Of a stretch of DNA of 64,000 nucleotides, positions 53,848 to 64,000 are shown piece after piece. Position numbers and translations under genes: made by a program. Below the pieces are notes generated by a model. It was not told the origin of the DNA. It made no database searches and saw only the letters and a list, made by a program, of their open reading frames with translations. Origin of the DNA: Thermoanaerobaculum aquaticum (GTDB lineage Bacteria; Acidobacteriota; Thermoanaerobaculia; Thermoanaerobaculales; Thermoanaerobaculaceae); assembly GCF_000687145.1 (NCBI RefSeq), contig NZ_JMFG01000011.1, positions 67,444-131,443 on the forward strand. The letters run 5' to 3'. Position 1 is the stretch's first letter; the number at the start of each line of letters is the position of its first letter.

Positions 53848-53967
53848 GGTTCCAGGTTGCCAGCTGGAGGTTTGCCTGTCCAGGGCTTCACGGGGTTTTC
53901 AAGGTCATGGCTTAGGTTTAGAGTGTAAGATGCCCCTCGATGTTTGGGGGATGAAAGGAGGAGGTCT

Positions 53968-56865
53968 ATGCGAGGAAGGGCACTGTTGTTACGAAGCGTG
54001 GCCTTGGCGCTGCTGCTCTTTTCTGCAGCTGCCGCCTGGGCGCAAACCGATGTCACCATGGCGCGCATCACCGGTACGGTCAAGGACGAGCAGGGTCAGC
54101 CGCTGCCGGGGGCTTTGGTGGAAGCCAAAAACCAGGAAACCGGCCTGATGGCGCGGGCGGTGGCTGATACTAACGGGTTTTACCGGCTTTTGAACCTGCC
54201 GCCCGGGGTGTATACCCTCACAGCCAGCCTCTCGGGTTTTGCCACCCTGGAGAAAAGCGATGTGAGGCTGGTTCTGGGCTCGGCGCCCACGGTGGACTTC
54301 ACGCTGCCGGCCGCCACCACCGCTGAAACCGTGACTGTCACCGCCGAAACGCCGCTGGTGGAGGTCACCAACACCACGGTGGGGGCCACGATCCTCAACG
54401 AGCAAATCAAGAGCTTGCCCCTCAACGGCCGGGACTTCACCTCCCTGGTGTACCTCACCCCGGAGACCCGCCGGGAATCCCAGCGGGGCTACATCTCCAT
54501 TTCCGGGCAGCGGGGGATTAACACCAACGTCACAGTGGACGGCGTGGACTACAACAACGCCTTCTTCGGTGGCCAGTACGGCACTGCCGAAGGACGGGCA
54601 CCCCTGGCCATTTCCCAGGAGTCCATTAAGGAGTTTGCGGTGATCACCAACGGTGCTTCCGCCGAGTTTGGCCGCTCGGGCGGCGGTTTCGTCAACGTGA
54701 TTACCAAGAGCGGCACCAACGACTACCACGGTTCCGCTTTTTACTACTGGCAGCCCCAGGATCTCGCCTCCGATCCGCCGGTGGGCGAAAAGCTGGACCA
54801 GGAGAAGAAGCAGTTCGGCGGCTCCTTCGGCGGCGCCTTTATGAAGGACAAGCTCTTCTTCTTCACCTCTTACGACCAGCAAGACCAGAGCTTGACGATC
54901 CCCATTGACCCCCGGGTGCTGGACGCCGACATCTTTGCGAAGTACCCGGTGCTGGCCTCCCCGCCGCAGTACGTGCAAACCCGCGACGGGCGGGTGCTTT
55001 TTACCCGCTTTGACTTCTTTGCAAGCCCCCAGCACCGCTTCATGGCCCGCATGAACTACGGGGACTACGAGGGGATCAACGGTACCTCCACCAGCCCCAC
55101 CCGTACCGAGTCCTACAACGGCATCGAGGGGATGTTCTCCCGTTCCTACGTGGCCTCCTATTCCGGTACCTGGTCCGATAACCTGCTCAACGACTTCAAC
55201 TTCCAGTACGTTTTGGAGGACACGCCCCGGCGGGATAAGGGGCTGGGCTTGCCGGACATTCAGGTGCGGGGCATCGGCAACTACGGGGAGGTGAGCTTCC
55301 TGCCCATTACCTCCACCGCCGACCGCACCACCATCTTTGACACCGTCACTTACATGTGGCAGGACCACGTGTTCAAGGGCGGTTTTGAGTACAACGACAC
55401 CTCCATTGACCAGATCTTCAAGGGCAACTGGCGGGGGGTCTTCATCTTCAACAACAAGGCCGACTTTTTGGCCGGCAAGTGGTCCGAATACCGGCAGTTC
55501 GGCGGTCTGCAGGGCTTGACCGCCGATGAGGCCGGTCGCTCCAACTTTGGGCAAAAGGAGTACGCGGCGTTCCTGCAAGACCAATGGTTCATTTCCCCCC
55601 AGCTCACGCTCACCTTGGGATTGCGGTGGGAACGGCTGGATAACCCCGACTTCCCGATCCTGAACCTGCGGGAGCAAAATCCCGACGGCACCTACAAGCT
55701 CAACGGCAAGATCCCCGATGAGGATAACCAGTGGTCGCCCCGCATCGGTGTTTCCTGGGCCCCGGCTCCCAAAACCGCGGTGCGCTTTTCGGCCGGCCGC
55801 TTCTGGAGCCGTACACCGGCCCTGCTTTGGGCGCAAACCAACACCTCCAACGGCTTGAAGGGCACCCAGTACCTGATCTTCGCCCAGCGGGACAACCGCG
55901 GCAACGTCATTGGGCCACCCACCGACCCGCTGGCTCCCGGCTGGGGCTCCGCCTGGGATCCTCACGGCGTCGAGCGGGTGGACTTCTCCTCCATTCCCAT
56001 CCCCCGCGGCGTGGGGGTGTTTACGGTGGACCCCAACTTCCGCAACCCCTACACGGACCGCGTCACCCTGGAGTTTGAGCGGGAGCTCTTTGCCAACACC
56101 GCCGCTTCCTTGAGCATCACCTACGCCGAGTCCAAGCACCTGGAGCGGCTTACCGATGCTAACCTCCGGTACGATGGCACCACCTCCGCCAACGGCCTGC
56201 CCCACTACGACCGCAACCGTCCCAACCCGGCCTACGGCCGCGTTACCGTGTACACCTCCGATGCCCGTTCCAAGTACTGGGGGATCAGCTTGCTCCTGCA
56301 GCGCCGGTTTGTGGAGCGCTTCTTCGGCATGCTGTCGGTGACCTGGTCCGAGGACAAGGACAACGACTCCAACGAGCGCAACTTTGCGGGGCTCTTTGCC
56401 GAGGACAAGAACAACCTGGATTTGAACTGGGGCTGGGCCGACCGCGACCAGCGGTGGAAGATTGCCGCCAACGGGACCTGGAACACGCCGTGGTGGGGGA
56501 TTTCCCTCTCCGGTTTGTTCCGCTTTGCCACCGGCCAGCCCTACACCGCCTTTGCGGGCGCCGATCTTAACGGTGACCAGGACTCCGGGACTGACCGTCC
56601 CACGGTGGGCGGCAAGCACTTCCCCCGCAACAGCTTCCGCCAGCCGGACACGTGGTCTTTGGACCTGCGCCTGCAAAAGACCTTTGACATCAAGGGCTTT
56701 AAGCTGGCGGCCATTGCCGAGTGCTTTAACTGCACCGATCGCGAGGAGTACACGGTGACCAACACCATTTGGGGCACGGGGGAAACGCCGCGCTCCACCT
56801 TTGGCGCCAAGTCCTACACCGGCACGCCGCGCACCATTCAGCTGGCCATCCGCCTGGACTTCTAG
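53968..56865 (+). CDS. TonB-dependent receptor, Oar-like, with carboxypeptidase-regulatory domain
   Basis: A 965-residue outer-membrane receptor. Signal peptide 1-26 (ending AWAQ), CarboxypepD-like domain about 33-115 (ITGTVKDEQGQPLPGALVEA, LPPGVYTLTASLSGF), plug about 120-260 (LPLNGRDFTSLVYLTPETRR, VDGVDYNNAFFGGQYG, EFGRSGGGFVNVITKSGTND), then the barrel to the terminal FRLDF-like RLDF. The start ATG follows AAAGGAGGAGG; an earlier ATG lacks the ribosome site. It is a single unit ended by a strong terminator, so its cargo cannot be inferred from neighbours; similar Oar proteins interact with peptides or protease products, and a protease gene follows. Confidence 0.9.
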   Translation: MRGRALLLRSVALALLLFSAAAAWAQTDVTMARITGTVKDEQGQPLPGALVEAKNQETGLMARAVADTNGFYRLLNLPPGVYTLTASLSGFATLEKSDVRLVLGSAPTVDFTLPAATTAETVTVTAETPLVEVTNTTVGATILNEQIKSLPLNGRDFTSLVYLTPETRRESQRGYISISGQRGINTNVTVDGVDYNNAFFGGQYGTAEGRAPLAISQESIKEFAVITNGASAEFGRSGGGFVNVITKSGTNDYHGSAFYYWQPQDLASDPPVGEKLDQEKKQFGGSFGGAFMKDKLFFFTSYDQQDQSLTIPIDPRVLDADIFAKYPVLASPPQYVQTRDGRVLFTRFDFFASPQHRFMARMNYGDYEGINGTSTSPTRTESYNGIEGMFSRSYVASYSGTWSDNLLNDFNFQYVLEDTPRRDKGLGLPDIQVRGIGNYGEVSFLPITSTADRTTIFDTVTYMWQDHVFKGGFEYNDTSIDQIFKGNWRGVFIFNNKADFLAGKWSEYRQFGGLQGLTADEAGRSNFGQKEYAAFLQDQWFISPQLTLTLGLRWERLDNPDFPILNLREQNPDGTYKLNGKIPDEDNQWSPRIGVSWAPAPKTAVRFSAGRFWSRTPALLWAQTNTSNGLKGTQYLIFAQRDNRGNVIGPPTDPLAPGWGSAWDPHGVERVDFSSIPIPRGVGVFTVDPNFRNPYTDRVTLEFERELFANTAASLSITYAESKHLERLTDANLRYDGTTSANGLPHYDRNRPNPAYGRVTVYTSDARSKYWGISLLLQRRFVERFFGMLSVTWSEDKDNDSNERNFAGLFAEDKNNLDLNWGWADRDQRWKIAANGTWNTPWWGISLSGLFRFATGQPYTAFAGADLNGDQDSGTDRPTVGGKHFPRNSFRQPDTWSLDLRLQKTFDIKGFKLAAIAECFNCTDREEYTVTNTIWGTGETPRSTFGAKSYTGTPRTIQLAIRLDF

Positions 56866-56918: not shown

Positions 56919-57049
56919 CACCGGGATGGACACCCGCCGGCGCGTTCTGAAAACTTTTCAGGCAGGTGGCTCGAGAGCAGCTCCCCATTGAAACATTTTC
57001 GAGCTAGTACGAAAGCTTGTGAGCAATTTTTGTCACTGCGGCAAGGGCC

Positions 57050-57078
57050 TTGACAGGCTTTCTGGGGCCACCTTAGCT
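57050..57078 (+). promoter_or_regulatory. Possible promoter of the protease gene
   Basis: TTGACA, 17-base spacer, TTAGCT. The start near 57085 gives a short leader with GGAGGGGG before the ATG at 57103. The -10 is weak. Confidence 0.45.
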
Positions 57079-57102
57079 TGGTGCCAGGAAAAGGAGGGGG
57101 CT

Positions 57103-59013
57103 ATGCGAAAGGCACTAACAGCATTTTTGGTTTTGACGATGGCAAGCGGAGCTTTTGCCGCGGTACAGCAAGCCCCGCGCCACGAGCAGGAGGGGATCCT
57201 CTCGGGCATGGAGCTGTCGCTGGCGTCCTTCGACGAACGGGGCGTTCCCACCTTCCTCGCCGGCAACCTCGGCCAGGTTTCTGGGGGCGATCCGGTTGGA
57301 GCTTCGCTCGCCTTTCTGGAAGAAAAGCGGGCGGTATTTCTTGCCACGGGCCAGGAAGAGTTTGCCTTCAATCGGGTCCAGGAAGATGAGCTCGGGCAAA
57401 TCCACGTGCGCTTCCAGCAGACGTTTCAGGGCCGACCGGTGGTAGGTGCCGAGCTCATCGTGCACCTGGAGGCAGCCTCCGGAAAGGTTTTGGCCATCAA
57501 CGGGAAGTTCGTGCCTGCGTCGGAAATACCGACGCAACCTCTCCTGGAAGCAGAAACCGCCCTGCAAGCGGCCGCCCCGGCGGCGGGAATTGCCTCGGGA
57601 ACGGTAGTGACGGCCCCCGAGCTGGTGTATGTACCTACCGATGAGGGCCTGCGGCTGGCCTGGCAAGCGACGGTGGCCTATGAGAGGGATGGAGAACCTT
57701 ACCTCGATCGGGTTTACGCGGATAGCGATACCGGTGAGTTCCTGGGGGCAGAGGGCCTCCTTCACCGTGCCCTGTACCGCAAGATCTACACCGCCAACAA
57801 CGGCACGTCCTTGCCCGGCACCTTGATGTTTGTGGAAGGTGGGTCCTCTTCGGACACCACCGCCATGGCCGCCTACAACAACTCGGGCATTACGTACAAC
57901 TACTACAAGACCAAGTTCAACCGCGACTCCTACGACAACGCCGGTGCCCAGTTGATTTCCACGGTTCACTATGGCAGCAACTACAACAACGCTTTCTGGA
58001 ACGGCTCGCAAATGGTCTATGGGGACGGTGATGGCACAACGTTCGGACCCTTTGCCAAAGCCCTGGACGTGGTGGCCCACGAGCTCACCCATGCGGTCAC
58101 CGACCGCACGGCCGGGCTTGCCTACCAGAACGATTCCGGCGCTCTCAACGAAGCCATGTCCGACATTTTTGGCGCGGCCACCGAGGCGTACAGTGCGGGC
58201 GGTATCAGCTCCAACACATGGAAGATTGGCGAGGCCTGCTACACCCCCGCCACCGCAGGGGATGCCCTCCGTTACATGAACAACCCCACGGCTGACGGGT
58301 ATTCAAGAGACTATTACCCGGAGCGGCTTTACGCCTACAACTGCACGCCATCCTCCAGCAACGACTACTGCGGGGTGCACGGTAACTCCGGCGTTGCCAA
58401 CCTGGCCTTCTACCTGATGGTCAGCGGTGGCAGCCATCCCCGGGCCAAGACCTCCATTGCCGTAACCTCGATTGGGCTTTCCCGGGCCGAGCAGATCTTT
58501 TACCGGGCCCTTACCGTCTATCTGACCTCCTCCAGCACCTACGTGGGAGCCCGCAACGCCACCGCGCAGGCAGCTACCGACCTTTACGGCTCCACCTATG
58601 CCACCTATGTGCATAAAGCTTGGGACGCGGTTGGCGTGCCTGGCGGACCGGTGAACATGAATGAGACCGAGTCCAACGGCTCGCTCTCCACCGCAAACAC
58701 CATCGGCACCAACGGCACCAACCTCCAGGGCTTCGTCGGCAGCTCCACCGACAACGATTACTTCAAGATCGGCGTGCCGGCGGGTAAGACCCTGGTGGTG
58801 TTCATGACGCCCCCCAGCACCAAGGACTACGAGCTTTACCTTTACAACAGCTCGGGAACCACCCTGGCCTCCAGCACTTACGGAACCGGTGTGAGGGAGC
58901 AGGTAATCTGGAAGAACACAGGGACGGCTACGGCCTACGTGTACGCCCGGGTCTACGGGTACAGCGGAGCCTACTCCACGACCTCGCCGTACTACCTAAA
59001 GGTGATTTGGTAA
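57103..59013 (+). CDS. Secreted thermolysin-family (M4) metalloprotease with PPC domain
   Basis: A 636-residue preproenzyme. Signal peptide ends AFA (17-19); the FTP/PepSY propeptide covers about 25-215; the M4 catalytic domain covers about 220-515. Zinc ligands are His326 and His330 in HELTH, with Glu327 the catalytic base, and Glu350 in GALNEAMSD. His426 in GVHGNSGVANLAFY stabilises the transition state. A bacterial pre-peptidase C-terminal (PPC) beta domain at about 530-636 is usually removed on maturation. Two cysteines near 395-425 may pair. The start ATG has GGAGG in front; an upstream in-frame ATG lacks a signal-peptide pattern. Confidence 0.93.
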   Translation: MRKALTAFLVLTMASGAFAAVQQAPRHEQEGILSGMELSLASFDERGVPTFLAGNLGQVSGGDPVGASLAFLEEKRAVFLATGQEEFAFNRVQEDELGQIHVRFQQTFQGRPVVGAELIVHLEAASGKVLAINGKFVPASEIPTQPLLEAETALQAAAPAAGIASGTVVTAPELVYVPTDEGLRLAWQATVAYERDGEPYLDRVYADSDTGEFLGAEGLLHRALYRKIYTANNGTSLPGTLMFVEGGSSSDTTAMAAYNNSGITYNYYKTKFNRDSYDNAGAQLISTVHYGSNYNNAFWNGSQMVYGDGDGTTFGPFAKALDVVAHELTHAVTDRTAGLAYQNDSGALNEAMSDIFGAATEAYSAGGISSNTWKIGEACYTPATAGDALRYMNNPTADGYSRDYYPERLYAYNCTPSSSNDYCGVHGNSGVANLAFYLMVSGGSHPRAKTSIAVTSIGLSRAEQIFYRALTVYLTSSSTYVGARNATAQAATDLYGSTYATYVHKAWDAVGVPGGPVNMNETESNGSLSTANTIGTNGTNLQGFVGSSTDNDYFKIGVPAGKTLVVFMTPPSTKDYELYLYNSSGTTLASSTYGTGVREQVIWKNTGTATAYVYARVYGYSGAYSTTSPYYLKVIW

Positions 59014-59123: not shown

Positions 59124-60335
59124 GTGGACTGGCTGGTTTTGGCGGTGTTTGTGGCGGTTTACCTGGGCATGTTCCTGGGTGAGCTGCCGGGCCTGGCTTT
59201 GGACCGCACCGGCGTGGCGGTGTTGGGCGCCATTGCCCTGGTTGCCAGCGGCCGGGTCACGCCGGAAATGGCGTGGCAAGCGGTGGATGTCCCCACGTTG
59301 GCGCTTTTGGCCGGGCTCATGGTGGTTTCCGCGCAGTTTCGCCTGGCCGGGTTTTACACGTTTATTGCCCGGCGGCTGGCTTCAGCGGCGGTGGCGCCCC
59401 CCGTGCTGTTGGCCTGGCTGTTGGTAGTCGTCGCGGTGCTTTCGGCTTTTCTCGTGAACGACATCGTGTGCTTGGCCATGGCTCCCATCTTGGTGGAAGG
59501 GTGCGCCCGCCGGGGCTTGGACCCGGTGCCTTTTCTTTTGGGGCTTGCCTGTGCCGCCAACATCGGTTCCGCCGCCACGCTCATGGGCAACCCTCAAAAC
59601 ATGCTCATCGCCCAGAAGCTCCACCTGGGGTTTTTGTCCTACCTGGGTTTGGCTTTCCCGGTGGTGATTCTGAGCCTGGCTGCTTGCTGGCTGGTGCTGG
59701 TACTCCAGCAAAAAGGCCAGTGGTTCGCCCACACGCCCATACCCGCCATCACGGCCCGGGAGCTGTCCCGCTGGCAAGCGGCTAAGGGGCTCGTGGTGTT
59801 AGGCGCGGTGGTGCTGGCGTTTAGCGTGACCCCCTGGCCCCGGGAAATCGTGGCGGTCACCGCGGCAGGGCTGTTGCTCACCTCAAGGAGAATGGCCTCC
59901 CGGGAGATGCTGGGGCTGGTGGACTGGCAGCTCTTGGCGCTTTTTGTGGGGCTTTTTGTGGTGAACCACGCCTTTGCGGTGGAGGGGTGGATGGCGGCAG
60001 CTTTGAGCAAGCTTTCCGGCTGGGGCCTGGATCTCTCGCAACCGGCAGTGCTTTTCCTTTCCGCCGCGGCGCTTTCCAACCTGGTTTCCAACGTTCCTGC
60101 GGTGATGTTGCTCTTGCCTTCTGCCACCTATCCGGCCGCAGGACCTATCCTGGCTTTGGCTTCCACCCTGGCGGGCAACTTGCTGGTGGTGGGCAGCATC
60201 GCCAACATCATCGTGGTGGAGCAAGCGGCGCAACTGGGGGTCGGGATTTCAGCCCGAGACCACGCTCGGGTGGGGGTGCCGGTGAGCCTCATCACGCTTT
60301 TCCTCGCCTTAGCTTGGGTTTTGCTGGCGTTTTGA
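59124..60335 (+). CDS. ArsB/NhaD/SLC13-like anion or ion permease
   Basis: A 403-residue membrane protein with about eleven helices of the ion-transporter superfamily. Key signatures are VDVPTLALLAGLMVVSAQFR, LVNDIVCLAMAPILVE and AANIGSAATLMGNPQNMLIA in the first half, with the inverted-repeat counterpart ALSNLVSNVPAVMLLLP and VGSIANIIVVE in the second. The NPQN and SNVPA loops form the substrate site. Substrate may be arsenite, a dicarboxylate or sodium/proton; sequence does not decide. The GTG start fits the first helix. It is probably a one-gene unit. Confidence 0.85.
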   Translation: MDWLVLAVFVAVYLGMFLGELPGLALDRTGVAVLGAIALVASGRVTPEMAWQAVDVPTLALLAGLMVVSAQFRLAGFYTFIARRLASAAVAPPVLLAWLLVVVAVLSAFLVNDIVCLAMAPILVEGCARRGLDPVPFLLGLACAANIGSAATLMGNPQNMLIAQKLHLGFLSYLGLAFPVVILSLAACWLVLVLQQKGQWFAHTPIPAITARELSRWQAAKGLVVLGAVVLAFSVTPWPREIVAVTAAGLLLTSRRMASREMLGLVDWQLLALFVGLFVVNHAFAVEGWMAAALSKLSGWGLDLSQPAVLFLSAAALSNLVSNVPAVMLLLPSATYPAAGPILALASTLAGNLLVVGSIANIIVVEQAAQLGVGISARDHARVGVPVSLITLFLALAWVLLAF

Positions 60336-60346
60336 CCCGGACCCCC

Positions 60347-60374
60347 TTGACAACTGGAAAAGAAGGTTTACCTT
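60347..60374 (+). promoter_or_regulatory. Possible promoter of the beta-lysine cassette
   Basis: TTGACA, 16-base spacer, TACCTT. The start would fall near 60382, the first base of a small open frame, or give a 200-base leader for the radical SAM gene. Confidence 0.5.
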
Positions 60375-60381
60375 TCGCGCC

Positions 60382-60501
60382 ATGGAGCTAGACTCGGCTA
60401 CCGAAAAGCCTCCAAGTAGTAGCCTCGGAAAGCTGCTCATCTCTCCTTTCAACGGCAGTGCCTTTTTCTCGGGACAGGTGAGGTGCGAACAGCTTTCCTA
60501 A
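60382..60501 (+). CDS. Possible 39-residue small protein ahead of the radical SAM gene
   Basis: An ATG-started frame of 39 codons reads MELDSATEKPPSSSLGKLLI, then a Phe/Gly/Ser stretch and the ending VRCEQLS. It begins seven bases after a TACCTT -10, the leaderless spacing seen elsewhere here. About 60% of third codon positions are G or C, less than in neighbouring genes, and no ribosome site exists, so chance is possible. If real, it could be a leader or a precursor peptide for the ATP-grasp and radical SAM enzymes downstream. I know no homologue. Confidence 0.25.
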   Translation: MELDSATEKPPSSSLGKLLISPFNGSAFFSGQVRCEQLS

Positions 60502-60588
60502 GCTCGCCGTTTACTTTACAAGCCGTCATTCGGTTCCACCTGGAGTTTCCCCCCGTGGACTGGAGTGAGGCTAGGGAGGAACACGTTC

Positions 60589-61749
60589 ATGCTTGAGGCA
60601 CAGGCGTTCCCATCGGCAACCCAGCAGTTTGTAAGCCGCGAAGCCATCTGTGCGGTGTTCGGGGAGACCTACGATCCGGTTTCCTGGCAAGACTGGCGTT
60701 GGCAGATGCGCCACCGCCTCCACCGGCTGGACCAGTTTGAGAAGCTCTTGAGCTTGACCCCAGCCGAGCGGGTGGGGTTGACCATGGCTTCCCAGCGCTT
60801 TGCGGTGGCGGTTACCCCCCACTTTGCGGCGCTCATGGACTCCGAGGACCCCAACTGCCCCATCCGCAAGCAGGTGATCCCCCGGGAAGAGGAGCTGGTG
60901 GCCGCTCCCGGGGACTTGGTGGACCCCTGCGGGGAAGACCAGCACATGGTGGTGGAGGGATTGGTGCACCGCTACCCGGACCGGGTGCTGCTGCTGGCCC
61001 AGGATGCCTGCGCGGCGTACTGCCGGTACTGCACCCGCTCGCGCCTGGTGGCGCAAGGGGACTTAAACGCCTTACCCAAGCGGCTGGAGGCCATTTTGGA
61101 TTACCTCCGCGCCCATCCCGAGGTGCGGGACGTGCTGATTTCCGGCGGCGATCCCCTGCTTTTCTCCGACGATCGGCTGGACGCTTTGCTTTCCGCCGTC
61201 CGCTCGGTGCCGTCGGTGGAGTTCGTGCGCCTGGGCAGCCGGGTCCCGGGCTTTCTCCCCCAGCGCATTACCTCGGAGCTGGCGGCGGTTCTCCGCAGGC
61301 ACCGGGTCTGGCTTTCCTTGCACTTTTCCCACCCGCGGGAGCTAACCCCGGAGGTAGCGGCCGCTTGCGACACCCTGGCCGATGCCGGCGTCCCCTTGGG
61401 CAGCCAAACGGTGCTTTTGGCCGGCGTCAACGATGACGCCAACACCTTGCGGGAGCTGTTTACTGGCTTGCTCAAGCTGCGGGTGCGGCCTTACTACCTC
61501 TACCAGTGCGATCCGGTGCTGGGAACCTCGCACTTGCGCACCTCCATTGCCAAGGGGCTGGAAATTATGGGCCAGCTGCGCGGCTTTACCACCGGTTACG
61601 CGGTTCCCACCTACGTGGTGGATGCCCCGGGCGGCGGGGGCAAGATTCCCTTGCAACCGCCATCCGTGGTGGCCCATGAGGGCGAAACCTGGGTTCTGCG
61701 CAACTGGTCGGGAAGGCTCTTTACCTACCAAGACCCACCGCAAGCATGA
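60589..61749 (+). CDS. Lysine 2,3-aminomutase-like radical SAM enzyme (KamA family)
   Basis: A 386-residue radical SAM/PLP enzyme expected to convert L-lysine to beta-lysine. The cluster motif is CAAYCRYC (Cys141, Cys145, Cys148). The PLP lysine is Lys352 in PGGGGK. The two aspartates that hold the lysine side chain in the clostridial enzyme are kept: Asp308 in YQCDPVLGTSH and Asp345 in VDAPGGGG. Glutamate 2,3-aminomutases replace these, so lysine is the likely substrate. It lacks part of the C-terminal tetramer tail of the 416-residue enzyme. I use the ATG after GGAGG; a GTG eight codons upstream is possible. ATGA overlap with the first ATP-grasp gene. Confidence 0.87.
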   Translation: MLEAQAFPSATQQFVSREAICAVFGETYDPVSWQDWRWQMRHRLHRLDQFEKLLSLTPAERVGLTMASQRFAVAVTPHFAALMDSEDPNCPIRKQVIPREEELVAAPGDLVDPCGEDQHMVVEGLVHRYPDRVLLLAQDACAAYCRYCTRSRLVAQGDLNALPKRLEAILDYLRAHPEVRDVLISGGDPLLFSDDRLDALLSAVRSVPSVEFVRLGSRVPGFLPQRITSELAAVLRRHRVWLSLHFSHPRELTPEVAAACDTLADAGVPLGSQTVLLAGVNDDANTLRELFTGLLKLRVRPYYLYQCDPVLGTSHLRTSIAKGLEIMGQLRGFTTGYAVPTYVVDAPGGGGKIPLQPPSVVAHEGETWVLRNWSGRLFTYQDPPQA

Positions 61750-62732
61750 AGGCGCTGCATCTCGGCTTCGTCTTCGATTGCCAGGAGGACTACCTGGCCC
61801 AGGGCTTCACCCCTGAGCAGGTGGCGGAGTTCGATCCCCGGGTCACCGTGGAGGGCATTGCCGCAGGCTTGCACGCTTGCGGCCATGAAGTGAGCTTGGT
61901 AGGAAACGGCCAAGCTTTGGCTCGGTCTCTTGCCCAAGGGCAGCGCTACGACTTGGTCTTCAACATTGCCGAAGGGCTGACCGGCTTTTCCCGGGAAGCG
62001 CAGGTGCCGGCGCTTTGCGAGCTTTACCGGCAAAAGTACACGTTTTCCGATCCCCTCACCTGCGCCCTCACCTTGCACAAAGCCATGGCCAAGCGGGTGG
62101 TGCGCGACGCGGGCTTGCCCACCGCCCCGTTTTTCGTGGTAGAAAGCCCGCAAGACCTGCGGGAAATCCCCTTTCCCGGGCCTTACTTTGCCAAACCGGT
62201 GGCAGAGGGAAGCTCCAAAGGCATTTCCGCCCGCTGCCAGGCGCAGGCCGCCAGCACGCTCCAGGAGGTGTGCCGGGAGCTGCTTGCAAGCTTCCAGCAA
62301 CCGGTGCTGGTGGAGCGGTTCCTGCCCGGGAGGGAAGTCACCGTAGGGATCGTTGGCAACGGGGGCGGAGCCCGGGTGCTGGGGGTCATGGAGGTGGAGT
62401 TTACCGAGCGGGCCGAAACCCAGGCGTACACCGCGCTGAACAAGGAACAATACCGGGAAAGGGTCCGCTACCGCTTGCTTCAGGATGAGGAGCTCGCCCG
62501 CCAGGCCGGTGATCTGGCATTGGCGGTGTATCACCTTTTGGGTTGCCGGGATGCGGCGCGGTTGGACCTCCGCTGCGATGAAACCGGCACACCGCAGTTT
62601 CTAGAAGCCAACCCTCTTCCCGGCCTGGACCCCATCCGCTCGGACCTGCCCATCCTCGCCCGCCTGGCGGGCGTGGAGTACGTGGAGCTGCTTTCGGCCA
62701 TCGTGGAGGCCGCGTGGACCCGTCGGTGGTAG
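61746..62732 (+). CDS. D-Ala-D-Ala ligase-like ATP-grasp enzyme 1
   Basis: A 328-residue ATP-grasp enzyme. N-terminal substrate domain has DLVFNIAEGLTGFSREAQVPAL, as in Ddl enzymes (FNxxEG). The ATP-grasp core has YFAKPVAEGSSKGISARC (phosphate-binding loop), VLVERFLPGREVTVGIVG and the magnesium triad in DLRCDETGTPQFLEANPLPG. The serine-tyrosine pattern of true Ddl is not clear, so a different acceptor amine, such as beta-lysine, is plausible. It forms an amide or peptide bond through an acyl phosphate. Cotranslated with the radical SAM enzyme and, by a 19-bp overlap, with ATP-grasp 2. Confidence 0.87.
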   Translation: MKALHLGFVFDCQEDYLAQGFTPEQVAEFDPRVTVEGIAAGLHACGHEVSLVGNGQALARSLAQGQRYDLVFNIAEGLTGFSREAQVPALCELYRQKYTFSDPLTCALTLHKAMAKRVVRDAGLPTAPFFVVESPQDLREIPFPGPYFAKPVAEGSSKGISARCQAQAASTLQEVCRELLASFQQPVLVERFLPGREVTVGIVGNGGGARVLGVMEVEFTERAETQAYTALNKEQYRERVRYRLLQDEELARQAGDLALAVYHLLGCRDAARLDLRCDETGTPQFLEANPLPGLDPIRSDLPILARLAGVEYVELLSAIVEAAWTRRW

Positions 62733-63679
62733 TTGCCCATAACCCGGTGCCGGCCGGTGCCGATCCCGCCACCGCCGACGTTTTGGAACAAGTAGCGTTG
62801 GTCGCCGAAGCCCTCGAGGAGCTGGCCATTCCCTACGAGGTGCGCGAGGTTACCGATCCCACGGCGGTGGAGCCATTCCGGGGCAAGGTGGTGTTTAACC
62901 TTTTTGAGGCTGAAGCCGGGAAGTTTCAGCTCCCCCTGGTGTTTGCCCAAACGTTAGAAGCTTCAGGCATTCCCTTTACCGGCTCATGCCGTGACGTTTT
63001 AGCCCTCACCACCAACAAGGTGGCCACCCGCCAGCGGCTCGCCGAGTTTGGCGTTCCGGTGGCGCCAGGGGGCGTGGCGTTCCAAGACCTTGCTTCGGTG
63101 CCATCCCCGTGGCTCGTCAAGCCCGCCTGGGAGGACGCCTCGGTGGGTTTGGAGGGCAACCCGGTGTGTTTCACCAGAAAGGATTTAGAGCAAAGGGTGG
63201 CGCAGCTGACCCGGCGCTTTCCCGGTCAGGAGATCCTGGTGGAGCACTTCCTGCCAGGTCGGGAGTTCAACGTGTCGCTCTTGGCAGGCGGTAACACGCT
63301 GGAGGTGTTGCCGGTCGCCGAAATAGCGTTTGTGGACTTTCCCCCCGATGTGCCGCCCCTGGTGAGCTACGAAGCCAAATGGGAAGCGGGCTCCTTTGCC
63401 GACACCCACACTGTGCGGGTCTTCCCACCGGCCGAGGATCCTGTGGTTGCCACCGCGCGGGAGCTGGCCCTGCAGGCGGCCCTGGCTTGCGGGGTTTCCG
63501 GGTACGCCCGGGTGGATTTGCGGTGCAACGAAGAAGGCAGGCCTTGCGTGCTGGAGGTCAACGCCAACCCCTGCCTGGCCCCGGGGGCGGGCTTTCTGGC
63601 AGCTGCCGCCCAGGCTGGCCTGAACCCGCCTCAGGTGGTTTCCCGCATCCTGGCGGCCACGGGAGTGGTATGCGCCTGA
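62714..63679 (+). CDS. D-Ala-D-Ala ligase-like ATP-grasp enzyme 2
   Basis: A 321-residue ATP-grasp enzyme, distantly related to its neighbour. It has VVFNLFEAEAGKFQLPLVFA, then PWLVKPAWEDASVGLEG (ATP loop), ILVEHFLPGREFNVSLLAG and DLRCNEEGRPCVLEVNANPC (magnesium site). GTG start at 62714 lies inside the previous gene, 19 bp before its end. Loop differences from ATP-grasp 1 in the 190-225 region suggest a separate acceptor, so the two may act one after the other to build a tripeptide-like product. Its stop overlaps the GNAT gene by 10 bp. Confidence 0.87.
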   Translation: MDPSVVVAHNPVPAGADPATADVLEQVALVAEALEELAIPYEVREVTDPTAVEPFRGKVVFNLFEAEAGKFQLPLVFAQTLEASGIPFTGSCRDVLALTTNKVATRQRLAEFGVPVAPGGVAFQDLASVPSPWLVKPAWEDASVGLEGNPVCFTRKDLEQRVAQLTRRFPGQEILVEHFLPGREFNVSLLAGGNTLEVLPVAEIAFVDFPPDVPPLVSYEAKWEAGSFADTHTVRVFPPAEDPVVATARELALQAALACGVSGYARVDLRCNEEGRPCVLEVNANPCLAPGAGFLAAAAQAGLNPPQVVSRILAATGVVCA

Positions 63680-64000
63680 GGCGCGAGCTTTTGCCCGCGG
63701 ACCGTGAGGCTATCGCCTTGCTGCTTGCGGCCACCGGCTTTTTCAACCCGGAAGAAAGTGCTGTGGCGCTGGAACTGGTGGATGAGCGGCTGAGCCAGGG
63801 TCCCGAAAGCCACTACCGCTTCTTGGTGGCCGAAGAAGCTGGCCAAGTCTTGGGTTACGCCTGCTGGGGGCCCATCCCCGGCACCCGTTTTTCAGCGGAC
63901 CTCTACTGGATTGCCGTGAACCCAAACGCCCAAGGCCACGGGGTGGGGCGAGCGCTTCTAGCTGCCATCGAAGCGTGGATGGCCGAACAGGGCCGCTTCC
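63670..64000 (+). CDS. GNAT-family N-acetyltransferase (partial)
   Basis: The first 110 residues of a GNAT enzyme, cut by the right edge. YRFLVAEEAGQVLGYACWGP and LYWIAVNPNAQGHGVGRALL hold strands 2-4 and the acetyl-CoA loop QGHGVGR. It overlaps the ATP-grasp 2 gene by 10 bp. In other bacteria and methanogens a GNAT enzyme (AblB) acetylates beta-lysine made by lysine 2,3-aminomutase (AblA); this one could act similarly or cap the peptide product. That link is inference. Confidence 0.87.
   Translation, partial: MRLRRELLPADREAIALLLAATGFFNPEESAVALELVDERLSQGPESHYRFLVAEEAGQVLGYACWGPIPGTRFSADLYWIAVNPNAQGHGVGRALLAAIEAWMAEQGRF

Follow-up and report, generated by a model that had tools for sequence, protein, structure and literature searches.

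A four-gene cassette at the end of the window

The window, a stretch of 64,000 nucleotides from a Thermoanaerobaculum aquaticum contig, ends in 3.4 kb filled by four overlapping, co-directional genes. The preliminary description had read these as a KamA enzyme, two ATP-grasp ligases resembling D-Ala-D-Ala ligase (Ddl) and a GNAT acetyltransferase, and this gene set is real (Table 1). KamA overlaps the first ligase (AG1) by 4 bases, AG1 overlaps the second ligase (AG2) by 19 bases, and AG2 overlaps the GNAT gene by 10 bases. The Pfam domains are LAM_C and Radical_SAM for KamA, Dala_Dala_lig_C for each ligase, and Acetyltransf_1 for GNAT. KamA may start at the listed ATG or at a GTG at 60565; position 60347, where the region was first placed to begin, lies about 240 bases 5' of KamA, in the gap after a transporter gene. 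The GNAT gene ends about 158 bases beyond the window (L009:7602, equivalent to 64158).

Table 1. Genes of the cassette and its upstream surroundings, in window coordinates
Feature	Coordinates	Strand	Evidence
TonB-dependent-receptor-like protein, carboxypeptidase-regulatory-type start	53944..56865		by reading
M4 thermolysin-like peptidase	57019..59013		
CitMHS-family (MamN-like) membrane transporter	59124..60335	+	PF03600, E 7e-55
KamA-family radical SAM/PLP aminomutase, predicted lysine 2,3-aminomutase	60589..61749	+	TIGR00238, 2a5h, conserved residues
AG1, Ddl-like ATP-grasp ligase	61746..62732	+	PF07478, E 9e-29
AG2, second Ddl-like ATP-grasp ligase	62714..63679	+	PF07478, E 1.6e-20
GNAT N-acetyltransferase, predicted amine cap	63670..64000, cut by window	+	Acetyltransf_1, E 5e-16

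The CitMHS-family transporter lies directly upstream of the cassette in the window and in 8 other loci of the host's family. Outside that family it was found near the cassette once (L045, from another phylum), and it is a possible accessory to the cassette. Downstream of GNAT, on the opposite strand, a gene reads by eye as pyruvate dehydrogenase E1.

The aminomutase carries the residues of a lysine mutase

KamA scores above the cut-off of the KamA-family radical SAM model of NCBIfam (TIGR00238; 325.9 bits, cut-off 199.2). Among the mutase models, its highest score is with lysine 2,3-aminomutase: it reaches 442 bits against the AblA model TIGR03820, below the cut-off of 525.4, and its cassette relatives reach 455-495 bits. 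Scores also stay below the cut-offs of the models for glutamate 2,3-aminomutase (396 bits, cut-off 650), arginine 2,3-aminomutase (384 bits, cut-off 600) and EpmB (TIGR03821; 248 bits, cut-off 369). The sole PDB match is L-lysine 2,3-aminomutase (2a5h, E 3.5e-123).

The CxxxCxxC motif, the PLP lysine and the equivalents of Asp293 and Asp330 are present in KamA and, cut-short sequences aside, in essentially all sampled relatives; the lysine-contacting Asp pair was found in every sampled KamA that covers the site. The positions originally given for these aspartates, 308 and 345, are exact with the ATG start, and the retained pair bears out the assignment of a lysine-type enzyme by its residues. 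The YQCD and VVDAPGGGGK motifs likewise match the lysine mutase. The Asp pair is established as the lysine recognition element of the solved enzyme, and arginine mutases are thought to keep it too, so these residues cannot separate lysine from arginine with certainty.

The window protein lacks the zinc-binding C-terminal extension known from the classical clostridial enzyme: the model match stops at 362 of 417, and the chain ends about 35 residues past GGGGK and has no C-terminal cysteines. The AblA-like proteins of L249 and L250, in the stretches scanned, similarly match the AblA model only to 364. Many type-I KamA proteins (L018, L037, L045, L089, L248) begin with an extra acidic segment that bears a D/E-rich PP motif; this N-terminal extension is missing from the window protein and from cyanobacteria. 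The host genome also holds a second, partial KamA-like frame at a contig end (L247:2-622, G000:C25). It has neither the GGGGK nor the YQCD motif, is followed by unrelated genes, and by these features seems to be a homologue that has diverged or been put to another use.

AG1 and AG2 are diverged from D-Ala-D-Ala ligases

The AF2 models of AG1 and AG2 reach pLDDT values of 93 and 92, respectively, and the nearest folds of both are all D-Ala ligases. Residues were compared by alignment to E. coli DdlB, for which a reference sequence checked for its length and key residues was used. Seven of the ATP/Mg positions are invariant, and two others show one conservative exception. In the D-Ala pocket, E15 is replaced by Ala and H63 by Glu in both window ligases, while Y216 becomes Glu in AG1 and Trp in AG2. 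S281-L282 is Ser-Asp in AG1 and Ala-Gly in AG2; S150 and S281 are retained in AG1 only. Neither ligase reaches the D-Ala-D-Ala ligase subfamily cut-off of 243 (AG1, 145.5 bits; AG2, 92.7 bits), and the host genome encodes a separate, normal Ddl elsewhere (217.9 bits).

The two enzymes are thus diverged Ddl-like ATP-grasps, as first described, in which the catalytic ATP/Mg residues are intact and the D-Ala pocket is mostly lost. Residues and scores together indicate that neither is a D-Ala-D-Ala ligase, a function that the preliminary description had set against its own proposal. A cationic substrate, for instance beta-lysine, would match the extra acidic residues of AG1 and AG2. Proteins named D-alanine--D-alanine ligase that are encoded beside KamA are probably misnamed.

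The acetyltransferase and an associated deacetylase fusion

The cassette GNAT scores 19.8 bits against the AblB model TIGR03827 (cut-off 205.1) and, judged by this comparison, is not AblB. Its family profile matches PDB entry 2r7h (E 3e-59, 202 bits), which belongs to the same GNAT family and which we take to be a Desulfovibrio protein. The entry is annotated as a putative D-alanine N-acetyltransferase, a name that is a structural-genomics prediction, and we know of no functional test of it. A search with the 2r7h sequence returned relatives up to 55% identical. Some cassettes encode an extra fusion protein that joins a GNAT domain to a deacetylase, the latter nearest to acetylpolyamine amidohydrolases (6phr, E 1e-70).

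The cassette is conserved in order across several phyla

Cassettes were sought by a KamA scan of genome contigs with a profile check, in which stop-to-stop frames were scored. Conservation of the gene set was the preliminary description's own test of its proposal, and the set is conserved: 33 of the loci sampled, spread over several phyla, carry KamA-AG1-AG2-GNAT in one and the same order. The ordered set occurs in Planctomycetota, Thermodesulfobacteriota, Alpha- and Gammaproteobacteria and one Myxococcota-assigned genome; most carriers are metagenome assemblies, for which single taxon labels may be wrong. Conservation of the order in other phyla, where the proteins are roughly 35-55% identical, excludes chance. 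An added acetylpolyamine-amidohydrolase/GNAT fusion marks 14 loci (11+1+2), a CxxCxxCC protein marks 3, and 5 belong to a diverged type in which KamA comes last (AG1-AG2-GNAT-KamA); the remaining loci are partial or cut by contig ends. A small CxxCxxCC (YkgJ-like) protein was seen between KamA and AG1 in the planctomycete loci L022, L025, L037, L040, L049 and L080.

Within the host's family, AG1 is present in 16 of 17 genomes, host included, and all four genes stand in order in the loci retrieved. Across the host's wider phylum, strong AG2 matches again fall within this set, and the weaker matches uncovered the AG1-AG2-GNAT-KamA type. The phylum of L045 gave AG2 matches at E<=1e-80 in 41 of 198 sampled genomes; AG1 stands beside AG2 in all 19 of the inspected loci, and KamA lies within the short flank in 17. 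For comparison, 52 loci with KamA alone, mostly from Verrucomicrobiota, served as a negative control and showed no strongly conserved neighbour. Among the neighbours of the sampled loci, no conserved small carrier gene or cell-wall gene was seen in or beside the cassette; this neighbour clustering is noisy in G+C-rich loci, where length-greedy gene calls pick antisense frames.

KamA and AG1 also track each other at the level of whole genomes. In a KamA search of 45 related genomes, whose counts are not independent, cassette-type KamA (~437 bits or more) accompanies type-I AG1, except in the more diverged G083 (400 bits), and is absent where that AG1 is absent. Three genomes of the host's wider phylum (G030, G043 and G068) have the ligase block without a nearby KamA and carry cassette-type KamA on another contig (54% identity). 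Neither AG1 nor cassette-type KamA was found in G297, a 94% complete genome of the host's own genus.

A separate ablAB operon exists in the host's order

In two genomes without AG1, G313 and G321, a KamA and a GNAT lie side by side and exceed the AblA cut-off (at 541 and 554 bits) and the AblB cut-off (at 289 and 293 bits), respectively; by these scores the pair is a genuine ablAB operon. G312 and G314 hold the cassette together with a second, AblA-like KamA of the same score class as those of G313 and G321. The cassette and ablAB coexist in the host's order as distinct pathways. Since genuine ablAB is present in neighbouring genomes and the cassette GNAT is not AblB, the cassette represents a different pathway.

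Cyanobacterial versions and exchange of modules

AG1 is rare in cyanobacteria (5/292). In trees, cyanobacterial KamA and AG1 nest inside the clade of the host's family, pointing to transfer. AG2 is absent from the cyanobacterial genomes checked, and these also lack an adjacent cassette GNAT. A SET-domain gene stands between KamA and AG1 in five cyanobacterial loci (L013, L014, L016, L235, L236), and two others (L011, L237) have an amidinotransferase gene in this place, whose product is close to inosamine-phosphate amidinotransferase 1bwd (E 1e-127); the other cyanobacterial loci have no gene there. The amine-tailoring step is apparently swappable, with a SET methyltransferase or an amidinotransferase in its slot, and the KamA-SET-AG1 and KamA-amidinotransferase-AG1 arrangements are possibly another set of undescribed pathways.

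A second kind of exchange is seen in L153 and L159: next to a KamA native to the family stand an AG1 that looks foreign in the tree and an AG2 and a GNAT that look foreign by identity and score. In these loci AG1-AG2-GNAT was apparently replaced as a unit beside a native KamA, and the three genes thus behave as an exchangeable block, with the KamA product as the common point. The reactions in question (acetyl transfer, deacetylation, methylation and amidination) all act on amines, and from this genomic context they would suit a product bearing an amine, free or capped, like that of beta-lysine.

A proposed pathway and its alternatives

We consider it rather probable that the cassette is an operon for making a di- or tripeptide of beta-lysine with a capped amine. 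This follows the preliminary inference, in which the two ligases join beta-lysine to one or two partners and GNAT caps the product. From its residues and family, KamA would isomerise L-lysine to beta-lysine. With their intact ATP-grasp sites, AG1 and, in most lineages, AG2 would use ATP to convert a carboxylate to an acyl phosphate and then to an amide bond. AG1 would join beta-lysine in such a bond and AG2 would add a second residue, giving a beta-lysine-containing di- or tripeptide. AG1 is predicted to use beta-lysine directly, because it alone stays with KamA in cyanobacteria. GNAT would N-acetylate an amine of the building block or of the product; in some lineages, the GNAT-acetylpolyamine-amidohydrolase fusion could reverse or edit this acetylation, and in cyanobacteria the SET methyltransferase or the amidinotransferase would take the amine-tailoring slot. 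We expect, as the most likely product, a small metabolite that stays inside the cell. That it might serve as a compatible solute or in stress is our guess, for which the grounds are analogy and a transporter conserved mainly within the host's family. Against the pathway as a whole stand the three genomes whose ligase block is unlinked from KamA and the ambiguity of the Asp pair between lysine and arginine.

The identity of the mutase substrate gives rise to one alternative, in which the cationic amino acid that KamA rearranges is arginine or ornithine instead of lysine, and the peptide made by the cassette contains the corresponding beta-amino acid. The missed AblA cut-off, the arginine 2,3-aminomutase score, the amidinotransferase of two cyanobacterial cassettes and the acidic pocket that arginine mutases share would all agree with this. 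We nevertheless regard it as unlikely, given that lysine 2,3-aminomutase is the top mutase model, that PDB offers no match other than a solved lysine mutase, and that the YQCD and VVDAPGGGGK motifs are those of the lysine enzyme.

The Ddl-like ligases might also act on carrier or envelope substrates rather than build a free beta-lysine peptide. Attachment of beta-lysine to a macromolecule (a protein, a carrier or a tRNA) would parallel the action of EpmA and EpmB on EF-P: the KamA paralogue EpmB serves macromolecule modification, and ATP-grasp enzymes such as RimK modify proteins. However, no protein of the host genome scores above the EpmA cut-off, and the best match (253 bits, a 503-residue frame) looks like lysyl-tRNA synthetase. 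With both ligases of Ddl rather than RimK form and no conserved small carrier gene seen in the cassette, we find such an attachment improbable. We hold it to be just as improbable that the ligases serve the cell envelope, supplying the stem or cross-bridge of peptidoglycan with an unusual dipeptide that GNAT modifies. The Ddl ancestry of the ligases and the annotation of 2r7h speak for an envelope role of this kind, but E15, H63, Y216 and S281-L282 are largely replaced, the 2r7h name is a prediction, and no conserved cell-wall gene was seen beside the cassette.

Finally, the proximity of KamA and GNAT resembles ablAB and could mean that these two make N-acetyl-beta-lysine as an osmolyte and that the ligases are unrelated, which is very improbable in view of the 19.8-bit AblB score, the separate ablAB operon in the host's order, the second AblA-like KamA of G312 and G314, and the cyanobacterial loci, where a ligase kept without an adjacent GNAT marks the ligase as core.

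Relation to known systems

The proposed beta-lysine peptide pathway shares single elements with three known systems. The AblA/AblB operon for the osmolyte N-epsilon-acetyl-beta-lysine also places a KamA-family lysine mutase near a GNAT; the cassette differs in a KamA below the AblA cut-off, a GNAT that is not AblB, and two ligases in between. Ddl and Van enzymes share the ATP-grasp fold and the ATP/Mg residues with AG1 and AG2, which in contrast score below the subfamily cut-off, have replaced D-Ala pocket residues and occur in a genome with a separate Ddl. EpmB and EpmA, acting on EF-P, likewise use a KamA-family mutase as a beta-lysine source; here, however, KamA falls under the EpmB cut-off, no EpmA above cut-off is found, and ATP-grasp ligases replace the synthetase-like enzyme.

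ATP-grasp ligation of small molecules is also the chemistry of NAGGN synthesis, mycosporine MysD and the L-amino acid ligases, and NAGGN synthesis includes a GNAT acetylation as well. To our knowledge, these pathways have no aminomutase, use other ligase subfamilies, and have operons that are not known to be homologous to the cassette. A 2009 computational survey of ATP-grasp amidoligases by Iyer and colleagues reportedly lists many such neighbourhoods. We therefore rate the cassette as kin of known ATP-grasp small-peptide pathways and not as categorically new. The preliminary description knew of no pathway with this four-gene set, and none was found in the literature searched, which consisted mostly of open-access papers.

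A wider reading, which we advance only tentatively, is that the cassettes define an undescribed but widespread metabolite class: beta-lysine di- and tripeptides made by paired Ddl-derived ligases, with lineage-specific acetyl, methyl or amidino caps and, in places, a deacetylase dedicated to their turnover. Since the cassette turns up in about one fifth of the genomes sampled from one phylum and in almost all of those sampled from the host's family, a carrier can be selected for a direct search for the product. If the proposed pathway is true, it would add a new use of beta-lysine to those in the Abl osmolyte, EF-P modification and antibiotics, and it would give ligases of the Ddl fold a new job.
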